Source: a virus. Taken from it: DNA of 64,000 bases. The position numbers were made by a program, and so were the translations under genes. The stretch spans positions 124,001-188,000 of the IMG/VR virus record IMGVR_UViG_3300031344_000002; one strand, written 5' to 3'. Below the pieces are notes generated by a model that was not told the DNA's origin, did not search any database, and worked only from the letters and a program-made list of their open reading frames with translations. This document shows, piece after piece, positions 2,706-31,340 of this stretch (the stretch's first letter is position 1; each line of letters begins with the position of its first letter).

Positions 2706-3797
2706 ATGTTGAAATTAACAACCGAAGATTTTATTAAAAAATCGAGGAATATTCATGGTTATAAATATGATTATTCATTAGTTAATTATATTAATAATCA
2801 TATAAAAGTCAAAATAATTTGCCCAAAACACGGAATTTTTGAACAGACAACATATACACATTATAATGGATGTGGTTGTCCTAAATGTGCTGGTCAATTT
2901 ATGAATACTAAATATTTTATTCAAAAAGCAAAAGAAAAACATAATAATAAATATGATTATTCATTAGTTAATTATATTAATAATTATATAAAAGTCAAAA
3001 TAATTTGCTCAAAACATGGTGAATTTTTACAAAGACCTAATGACCATTTATCTGATAAAGGATGTCCAAAATGTAATGGTGGTGTGAAATTAAATTGTGA
3101 GGAATTTATTGAAAAAGCAAAAATAAAACATAGCGATAAATATGATTATTCATTGGTTGATTATATTAACTCAATAACAAATGTTAAAATAATTTGTTCT
3201 ATTCATGGAATATTCAAACAAAAACCAGCCAATCATTTAAGAGGATGTATTTGTCAAAAATGTGCAGCAATAAAAAAAGCAAATAATCGTAAAAAAAGTT
3301 GTGAAGAATTTATTGAACAATCAAATAGAATTCACAATAATAAATATAATTATTCATTGGTTGAATACAAACATGATAAAATAAAAGTTAATATCATTTG
3401 TTCTAAACACGGTGAATTTTTACAAAAACCTAATCATCATTTAAACGGTAATGGATGTCCCAAATGTAATGATTCTAAAGGTGAAAAAAATATTAAAAAA
3501 TTCTTAATGGAAAAAGATATTAAACATGAATGTCAAAAAACGTTTAATAATTGTATAAATGAAAGAAAATTATTTTTTGATTTTTATTTACCCGAACAAA
3601 ATATATGTATTGAATATGATGGTGAACAACATTTTAAAATTGTTAAATATTTTGGAGGAGAAGTTGGATTTAATATACGACAAAAGAGAGACCAAATAAA
3701 AACTAATTATTGTATAGAAAACAACATAAATCTTATAAGAATAAGATATGATGAAAACATTGAAGATAAATTAACACCAATATTAATAAAAAAATAA
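2706..3797 (+). CDS. DUF723-repeat zinc protein with C-terminal endonuclease-like domain
   Basis: A 363-residue protein with four tandem repeats of about 55-60 residues. Each has the pattern F-x-K-x-x-x-x-H-x-x-KYDYSLV-x-Y, then C-x-x-HG-x-F-x-Q, then C-P-K-C, so each repeat offers a Cys/His zinc site. This is the DUF723 pattern seen in phage and giant-virus proteins. The last 100 residues (FFDFYLPE, then IEYDGEQHF, then a repeated D/Q-rich helix) resemble Vsr/DUF559-type restriction-like nucleases, with the Asp and Glu/Gln residues expected of such an active site. Probably a mobile homing-type DNA endonuclease with zinc DNA-binding repeats. The nuclease activity is inferred from pattern only. 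Confidence 0.7.
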   Translation: MLKLTTEDFIKKSRNIHGYKYDYSLVNYINNHIKVKIICPKHGIFEQTTYTHYNGCGCPKCAGQFMNTKYFIQKAKEKHNNKYDYSLVNYINNYIKVKIICSKHGEFLQRPNDHLSDKGCPKCNGGVKLNCEEFIEKAKIKHSDKYDYSLVDYINSITNVKIICSIHGIFKQKPANHLRGCICQKCAAIKKANNRKKSCEEFIEQSNRIHNNKYNYSLVEYKHDKIKVNIICSKHGEFLQKPNHHLNGNGCPKCNDSKGEKNIKKFLMEKDIKHECQKTFNNCINERKLFFDFYLPEQNICIEYDGEQHFKIVKYFGGEVGFNIRQKRDQIKTNYCIENNINLIRIRYDENIEDKLTPILIKK

Positions 3798-17058: not shown

Positions 17059-18537
17059 ATGCAAAAAATGAAAACAAAAAAATTATTGTCAACTATTATG
17101 GGAATTATTATTACATTGATTGTATTAATCACATGTAAAAAAGATGATTTTAAAGAAATTGTTGGTACGTGCCCCCAATCACAAATAGAATTTACTGTTG
17201 CATTATCATCAAAACCTCTTGCTGGCGGAACAACAATTGGTGATGGAACATTTCCTAAAGATTCATCGATAACTGTTGCTGCAACTCCAAATACTGGATA
17301 TGTTTTTACTAATTGGACAAATGAAGCAACAATTGTTTCAACAAGTTCAAGTTATACATTTACTTTAACAAAAAATACAACATTAATTGCCAACTTTACT
17401 CCTGTAATTGCTGGAAATTTTGCTGTTATATTATCATCAAAACCTCTTGCTGGCGGAACAACAAATGGTGGTGGTTCATTTCTTGCTGGTTCTTCAGTAA
17501 CAATTAATGCAATACCAAATATTAATTATAAGTTTATTAATTGGACAAAAGGAACAACTATTGTTTCCGTAACCCCTAGTCATACGTTTATTTTAACAAA
17601 AGATACAACATTAATTGCAAATTTTTTACTTAATGCATATACATTAAATGTTACCGCAGTTAATGGTAGTGTCACAAAAACTCCCAATCAATTTACGTAT
17701 AATAGTGGTACTTCGGTTATCCTTATACCTATTCCTGCTTTAGGATATGTATTTAATTCTTGGAGTGGTGATGCAAGTGGTAATATAAATCCTTTAAATA
17801 TTACTATGAATTCTAATAAGAATATTATAGCTAATTTTACTGCAATTATTATTATTTGCCCTACAATTATTGATTTAGGATTATCAGGTAACTTTGCAAT
17901 ATTTGCAGAATCTGGAATTTCAACCACTGGTGTTACTTTAATTACAGGCGATATTGGAGTAAATCCTGTGACATCTACATCAATAACTGGATTTGGATTA
18001 ATTCTTCCAGCAGGTAGTGCATTTTCAACATCAAGTCTTGTTGCCGGAAAAATTTATGCTCCTGATTATGCTTCACCTTCACCTGCTAACATGGTAACCA
18101 CAAGTGGCAATATGCATACAGCATATACAACTGCAAATGGTTTAGTTGTTCCAGCACCTGTTAATGAATTCATGGCTGGTAATCTTAATGGTCAAACTTT
18201 AACTAAAGGTATTTACAAATGGAGTTCTGGCGTTTCAATAACAAATGGTATTGTATTGGATGGTGGTGGTGATAATTGTGCAACATTCATATTCCAAATA
18301 GCTAAAGACCTTACAGTAGCAAATAGTGCAATTATTACATTACAGAATGGTGCTCAAGCAAAGAATATATTTTGGATAGTTGCTGGTAGTGGTGCAATTT
18401 TAGGAACAAACGTTAATTTTAGTGGAAATATTTTATGTAAGACATTGATTTCAGTGAATACTGGTAGTAAAGTTACTGGTAGATTGCTTGCTCAAACGGC
18501 AGTTACATTAAATGCGGTAACAATAGTTAAACCATAA
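17059..18537 (+). CDS. Lipoprotein with InlB-type repeats and DUF3494 ice-binding-like domain
   Basis: 492 residues. The signal peptide ends in a lipobox (VLITC), so probably a lipoprotein. Residues about 42-270 hold three beta repeats of about 70 residues with the 'GY-x-F-x-N-W ... N-x-x-x-x-ANF' signature of InlB/Listeria-Bacteroides repeats. Residues about 275-490 match DUF3494 (ice-binding-protein-like beta-solenoid): LGLSGNFAIFAESGIS, ITGDIGVNPV, LTKGIYKWSSG, ATFIFQIAKDL, GSKVTGRLLAQTAVTL. In cold-adapted bacteria this fold binds ice, but many members act as adhesins. It begins a four-to-six-gene cassette typical of Bacteroidota chromosomes. Confidence 0.82.
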   Translation: MQKMKTKKLLSTIMGIIITLIVLITCKKDDFKEIVGTCPQSQIEFTVALSSKPLAGGTTIGDGTFPKDSSITVAATPNTGYVFTNWTNEATIVSTSSSYTFTLTKNTTLIANFTPVIAGNFAVILSSKPLAGGTTNGGGSFLAGSSVTINAIPNINYKFINWTKGTTIVSVTPSHTFILTKDTTLIANFLLNAYTLNVTAVNGSVTKTPNQFTYNSGTSVILIPIPALGYVFNSWSGDASGNINPLNITMNSNKNIIANFTAIIIICPTIIDLGLSGNFAIFAESGISTTGVTLITGDIGVNPVTSTSITGFGLILPAGSAFSTSSLVAGKIYAPDYASPSPANMVTTSGNMHTAYTTANGLVVPAPVNEFMAGNLNGQTLTKGIYKWSSGVSITNGIVLDGGGDNCATFIFQIAKDLTVANSAIITLQNGAQAKNIFWIVAGSGAILGTNVNFSGNILCKTLISVNTGSKVTGRLLAQTAVTLNAVTIVKP

Positions 18538-18567: not shown

Positions 18568-19863
18568 ATGAAAACAAATATTATAAAGAAAATTTTTAAC
18601 ATTAAAACACTTACATTATGTATTTTAATGTTGATTGGTACAAATCTTCAATCACAAGAAAACCAGATAAATAAAAATGCTCAAAATTATGTAGATACTA
18701 CATTAACAAGAAAAGATACAATACCATCATGGTGGTTTGGTGCTGCTGTTGGTGGAAATTTAAATTATTACCGTGGTTCAACCCAAAATGTGAATGCTAA
18801 TTTATTTTCATATCCTGCTTTCCATAATGGTAATGGTATAGGATTATATATTGCACCTGTTGTTATATTTCATAATCCCGAAAAAGTTTTTGGTGGTATG
18901 TTCGAATTAGGATATGATAACCGTAAAGGTAAATTTAATGAAGTAACAACTCCATGTAATTGTCCTGCAGATTTAAAAACAAATTTAAGTTATATAACAA
19001 TTGAACCAAGTATACATATGACACCATTTAAAGGTAATTTTTATTTATTTGCCGGTCCTCGTATGGGAATTACAATCGGAAAATCATTTGTATATAATAA
19101 AGGTAAAAGTGTTGATGGATTAATACCAGCAGAACCTCAATTAAAAGGTAATTTTACTAATATGTATGAAGCAGTAATATCTATGCATATTGGTGCTGGA
19201 TATGATATTATACTTACATCAAATTTTAATGATAGTATTAAAGGTAGTAAAGAAGGTCGAAAATATAATGAAATGGTATTATCGCCATTTATAGATTTCC
19301 ATCCATACTTTGGTCAGAATCCACGCACAATTGAAACATGGAATCTAACTACAATTAGAATAGGTGCAGTACTTAAATTTGGTCATGTAAAGATTCAAGC
19401 AAAAACAAGACCAATTATAATACCAGTTTCTGATACAATAATACCAGTTCCTGTTCCTGTTGTTGTTATACCTGTTATTATAGTTGTTCCAGAACCAATA
19501 AAAATTACTACGGCATATACTTTATATTTCAAATTTGATGAATCAAACCTTGATAATCAAACAATTAATTATTTAGATAATTTAATTAATGATTTGAAAA
19601 AAGATACAACAATTGGTATTCAAATTAAATCATATGCAGATATGAGAGGAACTGAAGATTATAATATAAGTCTTTCAGAAAGACGTGGTAAAGCAGTTGT
19701 TGATTACATGATTAGTAAGGGTATTGATATATCAAGAATTAACTCAACAGCTTATGGTAAAACAAAAATATTTAATGAATATAAAGAAAGTACTAATGAA
19801 ATTGAATACGCATTAAATCGTAGGTCTAATATAATAGTAATTGGTATTGCAAGTAAAAAATAA
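18568..19863 (+). CDS. OmpA-like outer membrane protein
   Basis: 431 residues. Signal peptide (to about residue 30, ending NLQSQ). An N-terminal beta-barrel-like region (about 55-280) with alternating aromatic strands, a Pro/Val-rich hinge (PVPVPVVVIPVIIVVPEP), and a C-terminal OmpA peptidoglycan-binding domain (about 320-425): YFKFDESNL, IQIKSYADMRGTEDYNISLSERRGKAV, INSTAYGKTK, NRRSNI. This should anchor the outer membrane to peptidoglycan. It lies 30 nt after the DUF3494 lipoprotein gene, suggesting the two act together on the cell surface. Very unusual cargo for a phage. Confidence 0.85.
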   Translation: MKTNIIKKIFNIKTLTLCILMLIGTNLQSQENQINKNAQNYVDTTLTRKDTIPSWWFGAAVGGNLNYYRGSTQNVNANLFSYPAFHNGNGIGLYIAPVVIFHNPEKVFGGMFELGYDNRKGKFNEVTTPCNCPADLKTNLSYITIEPSIHMTPFKGNFYLFAGPRMGITIGKSFVYNKGKSVDGLIPAEPQLKGNFTNMYEAVISMHIGAGYDIILTSNFNDSIKGSKEGRKYNEMVLSPFIDFHPYFGQNPRTIETWNLTTIRIGAVLKFGHVKIQAKTRPIIIPVSDTIIPVPVPVVVIPVIIVVPEPIKITTAYTLYFKFDESNLDNQTINYLDNLINDLKKDTTIGIQIKSYADMRGTEDYNISLSERRGKAVVDYMISKGIDISRINSTAYGKTKIFNEYKESTNEIEYALNRRSNIIVIGIASKK

Positions 19864-28732: not shown

Positions 28733-29299
28733 ATGGAAGAAGAAAAAGTATTGGAATATAGAATGTATTTCTTTGTGCCTTATAATGTTAGCGAGATACA
28801 AAAAAGTTTACAAGCCGGGCATTCGGCATTAGAATATGCTCAAAGATATGGTCAATCAGAAGAATTTAAGAATTTTATGAATGATAAAACTTGGATTATC
28901 TTAAATGGCGGTACAACTAATGATGAAAGGGATTTTAATGAAATTGCATTAGGAACTCTAAATCAAATTGCTGATGGTTTATTGGAGAATGATATACAAT
29001 TCTCATATTTTCGTGAACCAGACCTTAATAATGCACTTACTGCAGTTTGTTTCATTTGTGATGAAAGAGTATTTAACGGAAAAGATTATCCAGATTTTGT
29101 GGATTATATTCTTGATATCAAAATGTATACCAAAACAGAAGCAGCAACACCCGCAGAAAATATGATTATGTTAAAAATAAAAACTAATGAAGAATTAATA
29201 ATAATGTTTCCAGAATATTATAAAGAATGGGTGCGCTTTATTGGTGGAATTAAGAATGTATTTCTACGTGAATTAATTAAAGATAAAAAATTAGCATAA
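28733..29299 (+). CDS. PTH2-like protein (putative peptidyl-tRNA hydrolase)
   Basis: 188 residues. The opening strand-helix 'RMYFFVPYNVSEIQKSLQAGHSALEYAQRYG' matches the PTH2 pattern (strand, K/Q-x-x-x-Q-x-x-H-A-x-L helix). Later 'GLLENDIQFSYFREPDLNNALTAVCFI' fits the GL-x-x-x-x-I-x-E-P/A region. PTH2 releases peptidyl groups from tRNA. The family match is by pattern only; the C-terminal third is an addition. Confidence 0.45.
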   Translation: MEEEKVLEYRMYFFVPYNVSEIQKSLQAGHSALEYAQRYGQSEEFKNFMNDKTWIILNGGTTNDERDFNEIALGTLNQIADGLLENDIQFSYFREPDLNNALTAVCFICDERVFNGKDYPDFVDYILDIKMYTKTEAATPAENMIMLKIKTNEELIIMFPEYYKEWVRFIGGIKNVFLRELIKDKKLA

Positions 29300-29336: not shown

Positions 29337-29744
29337 ATGGAAAAAGAAATAAAGATTAACGTACCAGATGGTTTTGAAATTGATAAAGATAATTCTACTT
29401 TTGAATTAATTAAATTCAAACCTGTTGTAAATAAGGAAGATAAGAATAAATCTATGTCAGATTTCTTATTTCAGATGTTTAATAATGCTGTATGCAAAAT
29501 TACTGGTGAAAAAGAATTAATATATTATAAATTAGATGGATATAATCCAAATTCTGATAATAATAAGTGGTTATTTCAACAGGATTGGAAAAGTGGTAGA
29601 CTTTGGATAAGATATACTTTAATTTGGCAAATTTTCGAAGAAAGATTTGGTCTTAACTACGAGCAAATCAGAGATTTCATTCAAGATTGGGTGGAAACCA
29701 ACCTAAATTGGAAGGGTTTAACACCCCAACGATTCTTGCCATAG
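29337..29744 (+). CDS. Conserved hypothetical whose 3' end contains the first CRISPR repeat (copy 1)
   Basis: 135 residues. The N-terminus EIKINVPDGFEIDKDNSTFE is a pattern seen in small phage proteins. The body has WLFQQDWKSGRLWIRYTLIW and ends ERFGLNYEQIRDFIQDW followed by VETNLNWKGLTP. The last 12 residues are encoded by CRISPR repeat 1 of array 1, and the frame closes inside spacer 1. A paralogue with the same arrangement is at 30748; the two are nearly identical over the first 28 residues and the last 30. Function unknown. If the upstream coding region also serves as CRISPR leader, conservation of its 3' end would be explained. Confidence 0.75.
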   Translation: MEKEIKINVPDGFEIDKDNSTFELIKFKPVVNKEDKNKSMSDFLFQMFNNAVCKITGEKELIYYKLDGYNPNSDNNKWLFQQDWKSGRLWIRYTLIWQIFEERFGLNYEQIRDFIQDWVETNLNWKGLTPQRFLP

Positions 29745-30055
29745 ACTATTTTTTTGGTGGAAACCAACCTAAATTGGAAGGGTTTAACACCTGTAATTGG
29801 TGTTGAGATAAGTGCCAAAATGGTGGAAACCAACCTAAATTGGAAGGGTTTAACACCTGTAAATGCAATCTTTCTAAAGGAAGTAAAGGTGGAAACCAAC
29901 CTAAATTGGAAGGGTTTAACACCTAAACATCCTTATAGTCATCTTGTGTTCGGGGTGGAAACCAACCTAAATTGGAAGGGTTTAACACCACATAGACATT
30001 GACATAATCTGCGTTATACGGTGGAAACCAACCTAAATTGGAAGGGTTTAACATA
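29690..30055 (+). CRISPR. CRISPR array 1: six 36-nt repeats, five 30-nt spacers
   Basis: Repeats start at 29690, 29756, 29822, 29888, 29954 and 30020, a constant 66-nt period. The repeat begins GGTGGAAACCAACC, continues TAAATTGGAAGG and ends GTTTAACACC. The first five copies are identical; the last has TA instead of CC at its 3' end, the degenerate terminal repeat expected at the leader-distal end, so the leader side is the 5' (gene) side. The ends GGTGgAAAC/GTTTaaCACC and the internal CCAA/TTGG can pair, giving a structured crRNA handle. All five spacers are exactly 30 nt and unrelated to each other. Repeat 36 with spacer 30 occurs in types II, V and VI-B and some III systems; subtype cannot be assigned. 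No cas gene is nearby. Confidence 0.93.
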
Positions 30056-30111
30056 TTGATTGTAAAAATAATAACAATAATATCAACAACTGAAACTAAA
30101 TTTGAAGAATA

Positions 30112-30711
30112 ATGAATATACGAAAAATTTTAAATTTACCAAATAAAGCTCAAAGAAGATTTATTGAACTTAGTAATGAAATTGTTTTAAATAATTGTGA
30201 AGTTATTGCTCGTGAAGAAATGGAAGAACAGCAAGATAATAAACTTTTTCATGACAGTCGGTGTCCAATATGTAAAAGTAGAAAAGATATTATAAATAAA
30301 ATTGTTAATATTCAAAGTCTTAATCATATTGAAGGTAATTTCAAATTTGGTTTTGGTAAAATAAAAACTGTTATCACAACTAATACTTATAAAGTAAATC
30401 ATTGTAATTCTTGTGGTAATGAATGGGAAATGTATAAAACCAAACCAATTTCACGAACTAATATATTAAATGTTGCTTTTAAATATTTGAAAGAAATATT
30501 GGAAGACCCAGAAAAAAATAAACAAGATTATAAAATGGAAGCCATACAGGTTTTTGAAAATTCATATGCAGAAACATTGTATGAACTTAATGTATGGGTG
30601 AGAACTGATATTAAATTATCTGTTTTAAGAAAACATTATAAATCAGTATATGACAAATATATATTTCCACAAGTTTCTCAATCATTTGTTGATAAATATA
30701 TTAAAGAATGA
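30112..30711 (+). CDS. Zinc-ribbon hypothetical protein between the two CRISPR arrays
   Basis: 199 residues. CPICKSRKD (about residue 61) and HCNSCGNEW (about 101) form two C-x-x-C knuckles about 40 residues apart, consistent with one zinc ribbon. N- and C-terminal parts are helical and basic, with 'ELNVWVRTDIKLSVLRKHYKSVYDKY'. No HEPN (R-x4-6-H), RuvC or HNH motif is visible, so not a recognisable Cas effector. Position between two CRISPR units makes it a candidate accessory protein, by neighbourhood only. Confidence 0.7.
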   Translation: MNIRKILNLPNKAQRRFIELSNEIVLNNCEVIAREEMEEQQDNKLFHDSRCPICKSRKDIINKIVNIQSLNHIEGNFKFGFGKIKTVITTNTYKVNHCNSCGNEWEMYKTKPISRTNILNVAFKYLKEILEDPEKNKQDYKMEAIQVFENSYAETLYELNVWVRTDIKLSVLRKHYKSVYDKYIFPQVSQSFVDKYIKE

Positions 30712-30747
30712 TAATATTGAAATAATAATATTTAAAAATAATTTTTT

Positions 30748-31161
30748 ATGGAAAATAAAGAAATAAAGATTAACGTACCTGATGGGTTTGAAATTGATAA
30801 AGATAATTCTACTTTTGAATTAATTAAATTCAAACCTGTTGTAAATAAAGAAGATAATAAATCCAAAGAAATGTCGGATTTATTATTCTCAATGTTTAAT
30901 AACACTGTGTGCAAAATTACTGGTGAAAAAGAAATAACTTATTATAAATTAAATGGATATAATCCAAATTCTGATGATAATGAGTGGTTATTTCAACAGG
31001 ATTGGAAAAACGGTAGATTATGGGTAAAATATTCACTTATTTGGAAGGTTTTTGAAGAAAGATTTGGTCTTAACTACGACCAAATCAGAGATTTCATTCA
31101 AGATTGGGTGGAAACCAACCTAAATTGGAAGGGTTTAACACCAATTCAAGGCGGATATTGA
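30748..31161 (+). CDS. Conserved hypothetical whose 3' end contains the first CRISPR repeat (copy 2)
   Basis: 137 residues, a clear paralogue of the protein at 29337: same EIKINVPDGFEIDKDNSTFE start, FKPVVNKED, ITYYKLNGYNPNSDDN, WLFQQDWKNGRLWVKYSLIW, and the same FGLNYDQIRDFIQDW end. Again the last residues VETNLNWKGLTP come from a CRISPR repeat and the stop lies in spacer 1. In DNA, the last 54 bases before the repeat differ at only one position from copy 1, while the middle is more diverged. Confidence 0.75.
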   Translation: MENKEIKINVPDGFEIDKDNSTFELIKFKPVVNKEDNKSKEMSDLLFSMFNNTVCKITGEKEITYYKLNGYNPNSDDNEWLFQQDWKNGRLWVKYSLIWKVFEERFGLNYDQIRDFIQDWVETNLNWKGLTPIQGGY

Positions 31162-31340
31162 CGACAGCAAAAGGTGGAAACCAACCTAAATTGGAAGGGT
31201 TTAACACCGTTGCCAGTAATGCCCTTGCGGAACTATATGGTGGAAACCAACCTAAATTGGAAGGGTTTAACACCAGAAAAGGATAACTGGTTTTCCTATT
31301 GTTTGGTGGAAACCAACCTAAATTGGAAGGGTTTAACACC
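31107..31340 (+). CRISPR. CRISPR array 2: four 36-nt repeats, three 30-nt spacers
   Basis: Repeats start at 31107, 31173, 31239 and 31305, identical to the array 1 consensus and all four perfect. Spacers (31143, 31209 and 31275, each 30 nt) differ from each other and from array 1. By hand count the eight spacers of both arrays average about 35% G+C, higher than the surrounding genes, as expected for foreign-derived sequence. The array begins in the 3' end of the paralogous gene at 30748, just as array 1 begins in its twin. Confidence 0.93.

Follow-up and report, generated by a model that had tools for sequence, protein, structure and literature searches.

Mini-CRISPR arrays without cas genes that probably formed in situ at the 3' ends of related phage genes

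We describe short, virus-borne CRISPR arrays that lack cas genes; we conclude with moderate confidence that they formed in situ, at the 3' ends of genes that belong to one mobile phage family. The window, a stretch of 64,000 nucleotides, corresponds to positions 124001-188000 of a 218,381-base IMG/VR virus record (G000), and it contains two of the three arrays found in this phage. Their nature as CRISPR arrays is supported by unique spacers of fixed length, by decayed terminal repeats and by one spacer that comes from bacterial chromosomal DNA. A first-pass annotation of the window had already recognised real, cas-less CRISPR arrays, and this part of its reading stands; the use of the arrays by an effector, which it also proposed, is at most tentative, and the coding origin of the repeat had escaped it.

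Array 1 (29690..30055, plus strand) consists of six 36-nt repeats and five 30-nt spacers, and array 2 (31107..31340, plus strand) of four identical 36-nt repeats and three 30-nt spacers. The geometry reported by the first-pass annotation is borne out for these two arrays, with ten repeats (6 + 4) around eight different and mutually unrelated spacers that are all exactly 30 nt, a distance of 1.05 kb between the arrays, and nine of the ten repeats identical, the terminal repeat of array 1 (30020-30055) being degenerate at its 3' end, where it reads ATA in place of ACC and carries two mismatches. The chance expectation for arrays 1 and 2 together was 0 in 100 shuffles. The strict spacer length holds for arrays 1 and 2 but not for array 3 (record 2902-3269, minus strand), whose six repeats, mostly a 2-nt variant (GGTGGAAACTAATCTAAATTGGAAGGGTTTAACACC), enclose spacers of 30, 31, 31, 30 and 30 nt; in the record, 11 of the 13 spacers are 30 nt long. 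The record itself is a fragment, and the contig IMGVR_UViG_3300028653_000035, which is 100% identical to it over 8.6 kb, reaches 13 kb further to the left and has array 3 with the same spacers.

Each array begins within the 3' end of a gene. The last conserved codons (VETNLNWKGLTP) of array gene 1 (29337..29744, plus strand, 135 aa) are the first repeat of array 1, and the stop codon of this gene falls within spacer 1.1, the gene-proximal spacer (29726..29755, plus strand, 30 nt). The same arrangement is found in its paralogue, array gene 2 (30748..31161, plus strand, 137 aa), where the first repeat of array 2 coincides with the last conserved codons, and in a further paralogue, array gene 3 (record 3125-3625, minus strand), the reading frame in whose 3' end array 3 begins. 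Genes 2 and 3 share 83-85% protein identity with gene 1, in a family of about 135 aa, and in every case the first repeat encodes the last conserved residues VETNLNWKGLTP. The repeat comprises 12 codons, and the usual repeat-spacer unit of 66 nt comprises 22. The reading frames take their stops from spacer sequence and end in the first or second spacer or in the second repeat, with the array 3 frame reading through the first two repeats. Searches of PHROGs and of the PDB with Foldseek gave no function for the array gene, and Pfam gave a weak match to Ntox23 below the cut-off; the product has weak fold matches to uncharacterised phage proteins. Its N-terminal motif, KEIKI..PEGFEID(K/R)ENS(T/S)F..I.FK, also occurs on other phage proteins (L098, L099, L100, L101, L103) with differing C-terminal parts, in the manner of a shared N-terminal module. 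Immediately upstream of array gene 1 lies a PHROG 3668 hydrolase-like gene (28733-29296), and between array genes 1 and 2 lies a zinc-ribbon-like ORF of 199 aa (30112..30711, plus strand) for which sequence searches returned weak matches only; it is at most a possible member of the array system.

Comparisons of sequence show that the repeat consists of the codons with which the gene itself ends. When the arrays are deleted in silico, the genes regain plausible native C-termini, LTPDK, LTPDNIKFI and LTPKY, each followed by a stop codon, and the terminal copy of array 1, joined likewise, yields LTY and a stop; in array 2 it is the sequence AGATAAATAA, directly after the array, that restores LTPDK and the stop once the array is removed. 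At synonymous positions, moreover, the repeats agree with the gene in which their array begins, with ACC/AAC in arrays 1 and 2 and ACT/AAT in array 3, and this holds even between paralogues within one genome. The exception is repeat 5 of array 3, which has the other synonymous variant, and for this reason recombination between arrays is suggested to occur as well.

Related phages provide both an array-free and a second array-bearing state of the gene. Close relatives of this phage were found via an SbcCD-like protein, among them a 348,923-base record (G003) with a median identity of 81% in the shared proteins. G003 has one homologue of the array gene, which is array-free; like G005 and G007, this genome showed no CRISPR-like array. 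The C-terminus of the array-free homologue in G003 and relatives (DFIGAWVKINLGWEELRPWCNF and a stop) aligns with DFIQDWVETNLNWKGLTP, the same end in diverged form; the G003 gene lies at a non-syntenic position, and no empty allele of an array-bearing locus was found. A search for the family recovered the second array-bearing phage, G008 (IMGVR_UViG_3300044712_001937), of 364,702 bases with a 127-base terminal repeat and a median protein identity of 55% to this phage. It has two paralogues of the array gene, A and B, at a distance of 1.3 kb. Both carry a pair of repeats around a single 30-nt spacer, the repeats being GGTAGAAACCAACCTAAATTGGAAGGGATTAACACC twice in A, and GGTAGAAACAAACCTAAATTGGAAGGGATTAACACC followed by a decayed copy in B; here too the repeats follow their own gene in the synonymous variant, with ACC in A and ACA in B. 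All five array loci, three in this phage and two in G008, lie at the same codon of one gene family. The position of the gene is non-syntenic among G000, G003 and G008, and therefore the array gene, with or without its array, seems to be mobile.

The two phages also reveal how the repeat evolves. Every difference between their intact repeats lies at a third codon position, and the repeat is identical in 12 of 12 amino acids as against 56-61% in the remaining protein, with synonymous change about as frequent in the repeat as elsewhere in the gene. This pattern indicates a constraint on the encoded amino acids, at least for the copy of the repeat next to the gene, with the distal copies free to decay; the latter can take non-synonymous changes and stops, and the decayed repeats (the last repeat of array 1 and the second repeat of G008 B) stand at the distal end. 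Taken together, the motif in the array-free homologue, the restored C-termini, the own-gene codons and the protein constraint point to a repeat that derives from the gene.

Both array-bearing giant phages apparently infect Bacteroidota. The window also encodes an ice-binding-like protein (17059-18534; PF11999, E 3e-66) with InlB-like B-repeats, adjoined by a gene for an OmpA-domain protein (18568-19860); the former is unusual phage cargo and might suggest a cold habitat. At the right end of the record (L017:14823-15381), a 12-bp tandem repeat of 46 copies, translated as NTLxNTLx, was probably the cause of the assembly break, and similar tandem repeats are found in G003 and G005. A UvrD-like helicase ORF in G001 (L042:4612-7182) is apparently interrupted by an intein-like or homing-endonuclease-like insert.

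An origin in the phage gene has to be weighed against conventional hijacking, in which an array was captured from a host CRISPR locus by recombination, became fused to the gene later and is used by host Cas proteins. Cas-less arrays with host-matching repeats are known in huge phages (PMC7162821), the combination of a 36-nt repeat with spacers of about 30 nt fits the geometry of type VI-B, and the repeat shares 20 of 36 positions with Bacteroidota type VI-B repeats, at a shuffle p of about 0.01-0.02 for a comparison picked after the repeat had been seen. This likeness is suggestive only, and we rejected VI-B membership: VI-B repeats fold with an inner stem of seven pairs, which the phage repeat does not form, folding otherwise and with a hairpin that is weak or absent in G008. 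A captured array would also not account for an array-free homologue that keeps the C-terminal motif, nor for repeats that follow the synonymous codons of each gene. The comparison with host repeats proposed in the first-pass annotation, which held that an effector elsewhere in the phage or in the host works with the arrays, gave no cognate repeat, with the pattern used, in about 85,000 species genomes, among which the true host may not be represented. Hence we regard capture from a host locus as unlikely. VI-B arrays nevertheless offer a parallel, in that those of Flavobacterium columnare gain spacers through II-C Cas1-Cas2 in trans (PMC8092290); like the phage arrays, they have 36-nt repeats, occur in Bacteroidota and are without cas1 and cas2 of their own, and unlike them they possess the VI-B internal stem, while Cas13b was not found in the phage.

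The 15 spacers (13 in this phage, two in G008) are all 30 or 31 nt long and mutually unrelated, and they have a GC content of 35% compared with 26% for the phage (p=1e-4). Spacer 3.1 matches the 3' end of rlmI, which encodes a 23S rRNA cytosine-C5 methyltransferase of the RlmI family, at the same site in many Bacteroidia, with 28 of 30 positions in the best case and a chance expectation of 0.0009 sites. In the sites shown, its mismatches fall mostly at synonymous positions of the motif PEGEYLKGLV, and if the array is read in the direction of its gene, the spacer is antisense to the last codons of rlmI and to its mRNA. By these alignments, spacer 3.1 clearly appears to derive from this bacterial housekeeping gene, and it is the sole spacer with a convincing source. 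Against G000, G001, G003, G005, G007 and G008, none of the 15 spacers had a match better than shuffled controls, so that targeting of the phage itself or of its relatives was rejected; no matches beyond chance were obtained in INPHARED and PLSDB, and spacers 1.1, 1.5, 3.1 and 3.3, searched with two union patterns, had no exact IMG/VR match outside these arrays. The bacterial search covered 395 Bacteroidia genomes and 399 of a second group with few candidates scored per genome, and for this reason the absence of further bacterial matches is weak evidence. Several candidate targets were discarded: a parA-like gene for spacer 1.1 (26/30, antisense over the start codon) at chance level, a MATE transporter gene for spacer 3.3 (26/31) and a TsaC-like gene for spacer 2.3 (24/30), neither beyond chance, and the matches of spacer 8A.1, which fall in several unrelated genes as expected by chance. 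For the eight spacers of the window, the comparison with phages, plasmids, Bacteroidota and the phage's own genome that the first-pass annotation had called for thus yielded nothing beyond chance, spacer 3.1 belonging to array 3.

Each insertion unit consists of 30-31 nt of foreign sequence and a 36-nt duplication of the gene end. Inserts of fixed length together with an exact duplication at a fixed site are what a Cas1-Cas2-type integrase is expected to produce, and we know of no other process that gives both. Judged from this structure, integration of the Cas1-Cas2 type at the site itself is the most likely way in which the arrays grew, and because no Cas1 was found in G000, G001, G003, G005, G007 or G008, the integrase was most likely supplied by the Bacteroidota host. 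Such an enzyme would treat the 3' end of the gene as a leader-repeat junction and make it the insertion site for short pieces of DNA, of which one or more came from a bacterial chromosome; the gene-proximal copy of the repeat would stay coding and distal copies could decay. Type II Cas1-Cas2 has a preference for guanine at the two borders of the repeat, and where it integrates off target, the sites look like leader-repeat junctions (PMC6895254); the phage repeat, with G at position 1 and C at position 36, matches this preference. Since VI-B arrays are fed in trans by II-C Cas1-Cas2 (PMC8092290), such enzymes can be permissive, and spacers have been documented to integrate non-canonically into DNA outside arrays (Nivala 2018, as cited in PMC11788318). 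The sequence in the leader position of array 1 (29644..29689, plus strand), which is coding and highly conserved between paralogues, is a candidate recognition sequence for integration. The equivalent sequence of array 2 (31061..31106, plus strand) is coding as well, and a promoter scan at these coding leader positions gave scores scarcely above shuffles. A perfect 9-bp inverted repeat, GATTTGGTC/GACCAAATC, lies at 31061-31086, 20 nt upstream of array 2; the versions preceding arrays 1 and 3 have one mismatch, and none was seen in G008.

The arrays are possibly a by-product of permissive integration by the host. A more far-reaching reading, which we offer tentatively, is that in this gene family the 3' end evolved into a landing pad, at which short DNA is captured through the CRISPR integrase of the host. 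Gene and array would then form a mobile unit, the repeat would be selected as protein and as integration site at once, and arrays would be born from, and maintained in, coding sequence. With less confidence, we propose that transcription of the gene runs on through the array, which would form the 3' part of the mRNA, that the transcript may be cut into guide RNAs by host machinery, and that these might function in infection against host genes, in the takeover of the host, or against competitors. Huge phages have been proposed to target translation genes of their hosts (PMC7162821), and the apparent origin of spacer 3.1 in rlmI fits this proposal. The hairpin that the first-pass annotation saw in the repeat is indeed predicted for this phage (-10.9 kcal/mol), but it weakens or is lost in G008 (-5.0 and -2.2), and Rfam gave no match. 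In view of the non-conserved hairpin, and with no cognate host repeat found, we leave the effector unassigned.

The same two observations argue against the use of guides and would thereby favour a decoy for spacer acquisition, in which a gene end that mimics a leader-repeat junction diverts the spacers of the host Cas1-Cas2 into the phage and blunts immunisation, with no need for guide RNAs. A bacterial rather than a phage source for one spacer would be expected if fragments of host DNA were captured during infection. A decoy should, however, also catch DNA of the phage itself, and 0 of 15 spacers match this phage, G008 or relatives, which makes this explanation distinctly unlikely.

We consider it more doubtful still that the loci are not CRISPR at all and that 66-nt units of 22 codons instead vary the C-terminal tail of the protein through recombination among the repeats. 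The repeat is the part of the protein with the strongest amino-acid constraint, the usual unit preserves the frame, and the array 3 frame passes through two repeats. Yet the spacers are mutually unrelated, the two of 31 nt shift the frame and several contain stops; the reading frames end early in the arrays, repeats far from the gene decay, and spacer 3.1 corresponds to part of bacterial rlmI in antisense. The first-pass annotation would have counted it as evidence against CRISPR if the spacers proved, in related genomes, to be pieces of a coding tandem repeat, and although the repeat is coding in the relatives, the spacers are not.

The statement that cas genes are absent holds as tested, with no Cas1 in the record, itself a fragment. 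In a PADLOC scan of the larger ORFs of G000, including large ORFs of unknown function, no Cas effector was found except one TnpB/IS605 OrfB (record 214945-216183; L017:11945-13183), and the larger ORFs of G008 without a G000 homologue gave only TnpB/Cas12f-like proteins; the scans covered mostly ORFs from about 380 aa upwards and, in G008, ORFs other than a few that run across the edge of a locus. Cas13 had no PADLOC match in the ORFs scanned, and no G000 ORF of >=400 aa has two R....H motifs. That a phage-encoded TnpB/Cas12f-like nuclease uses the arrays as guides, for which one could cite the G000 TnpB and a 482-aa protein of G008 (L120:17417-18865) that scores with Cas12u3/Cas12f models, is barely credible, since all domains of IS605 OrfB are present in the G000 protein, which has two relatives, in the array-free G003 and G005, since the two candidates share only about 26% identity, and since 14 kb separate the G008 gene from the arrays.

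Mini-CRISPR arrays borne by viruses are known from SPV1 and SPV2 of the Sulfolobales (PMC6858448), which likewise have one to few spacers per array, several arrays per virus and no cas genes, and for which the adaptation machinery of the host is presumed. Those arrays are intergenic, with host-like leaders and repeats and with spacers against related viruses, whereas the arrays described here lie inside gene 3' ends, their repeat is coding with no host repeat found, no spacer matches relatives or INPHARED, and the one clear source is a bacterial chromosome. The cas-less arrays of huge phages (Al-Shayeb 2020, PMC7162821) are similar in being compact, in a huge phage, without acquisition genes, and in that some spacers are directed against bacterial genes, including translation genes, as spacer 3.1 may be; for those phages we found no description of a repeat that stems from a family of phage genes, or of gene and array occurring as a unit in non-syntenic positions. 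A related process is neo-CRISPR formation, in which, according to papers that cite Nivala 2018, a pre-existing genomic sequence becomes a repeat upon Cas1-Cas2 integration outside an array, under Cas1-Cas2 overexpression in E. coli. A repeat that is pre-existing non-CRISPR sequence is what the array-free homologue and the collapsed reading frames reveal in our phages. Unlike in that work, there are up to five spacers per locus here, the same site is used in five paralogous loci of two phages, and the site is under coding constraint. Cas-less mini-arrays in phages are thus already known; the coding repeat and the gene-linked birth of arrays are new, and we found no precedent for them in the open-licence literature.

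The birth of CRISPR arrays de novo has so far been seen mainly as rare off-target integration in the laboratory, and these phages may show in nature how a CRISPR array comes out of ordinary coding sequence. At five loci in the two genomes, the sequence that founded the array is directly legible as a gene end, and an array-free homologue is at hand for comparison. They also present a case of a phage that stores a fragment of a bacterial ribosome-modification gene. Where the evolution of a repeat is constrained as protein, its roles as DNA, RNA and protein become separable.
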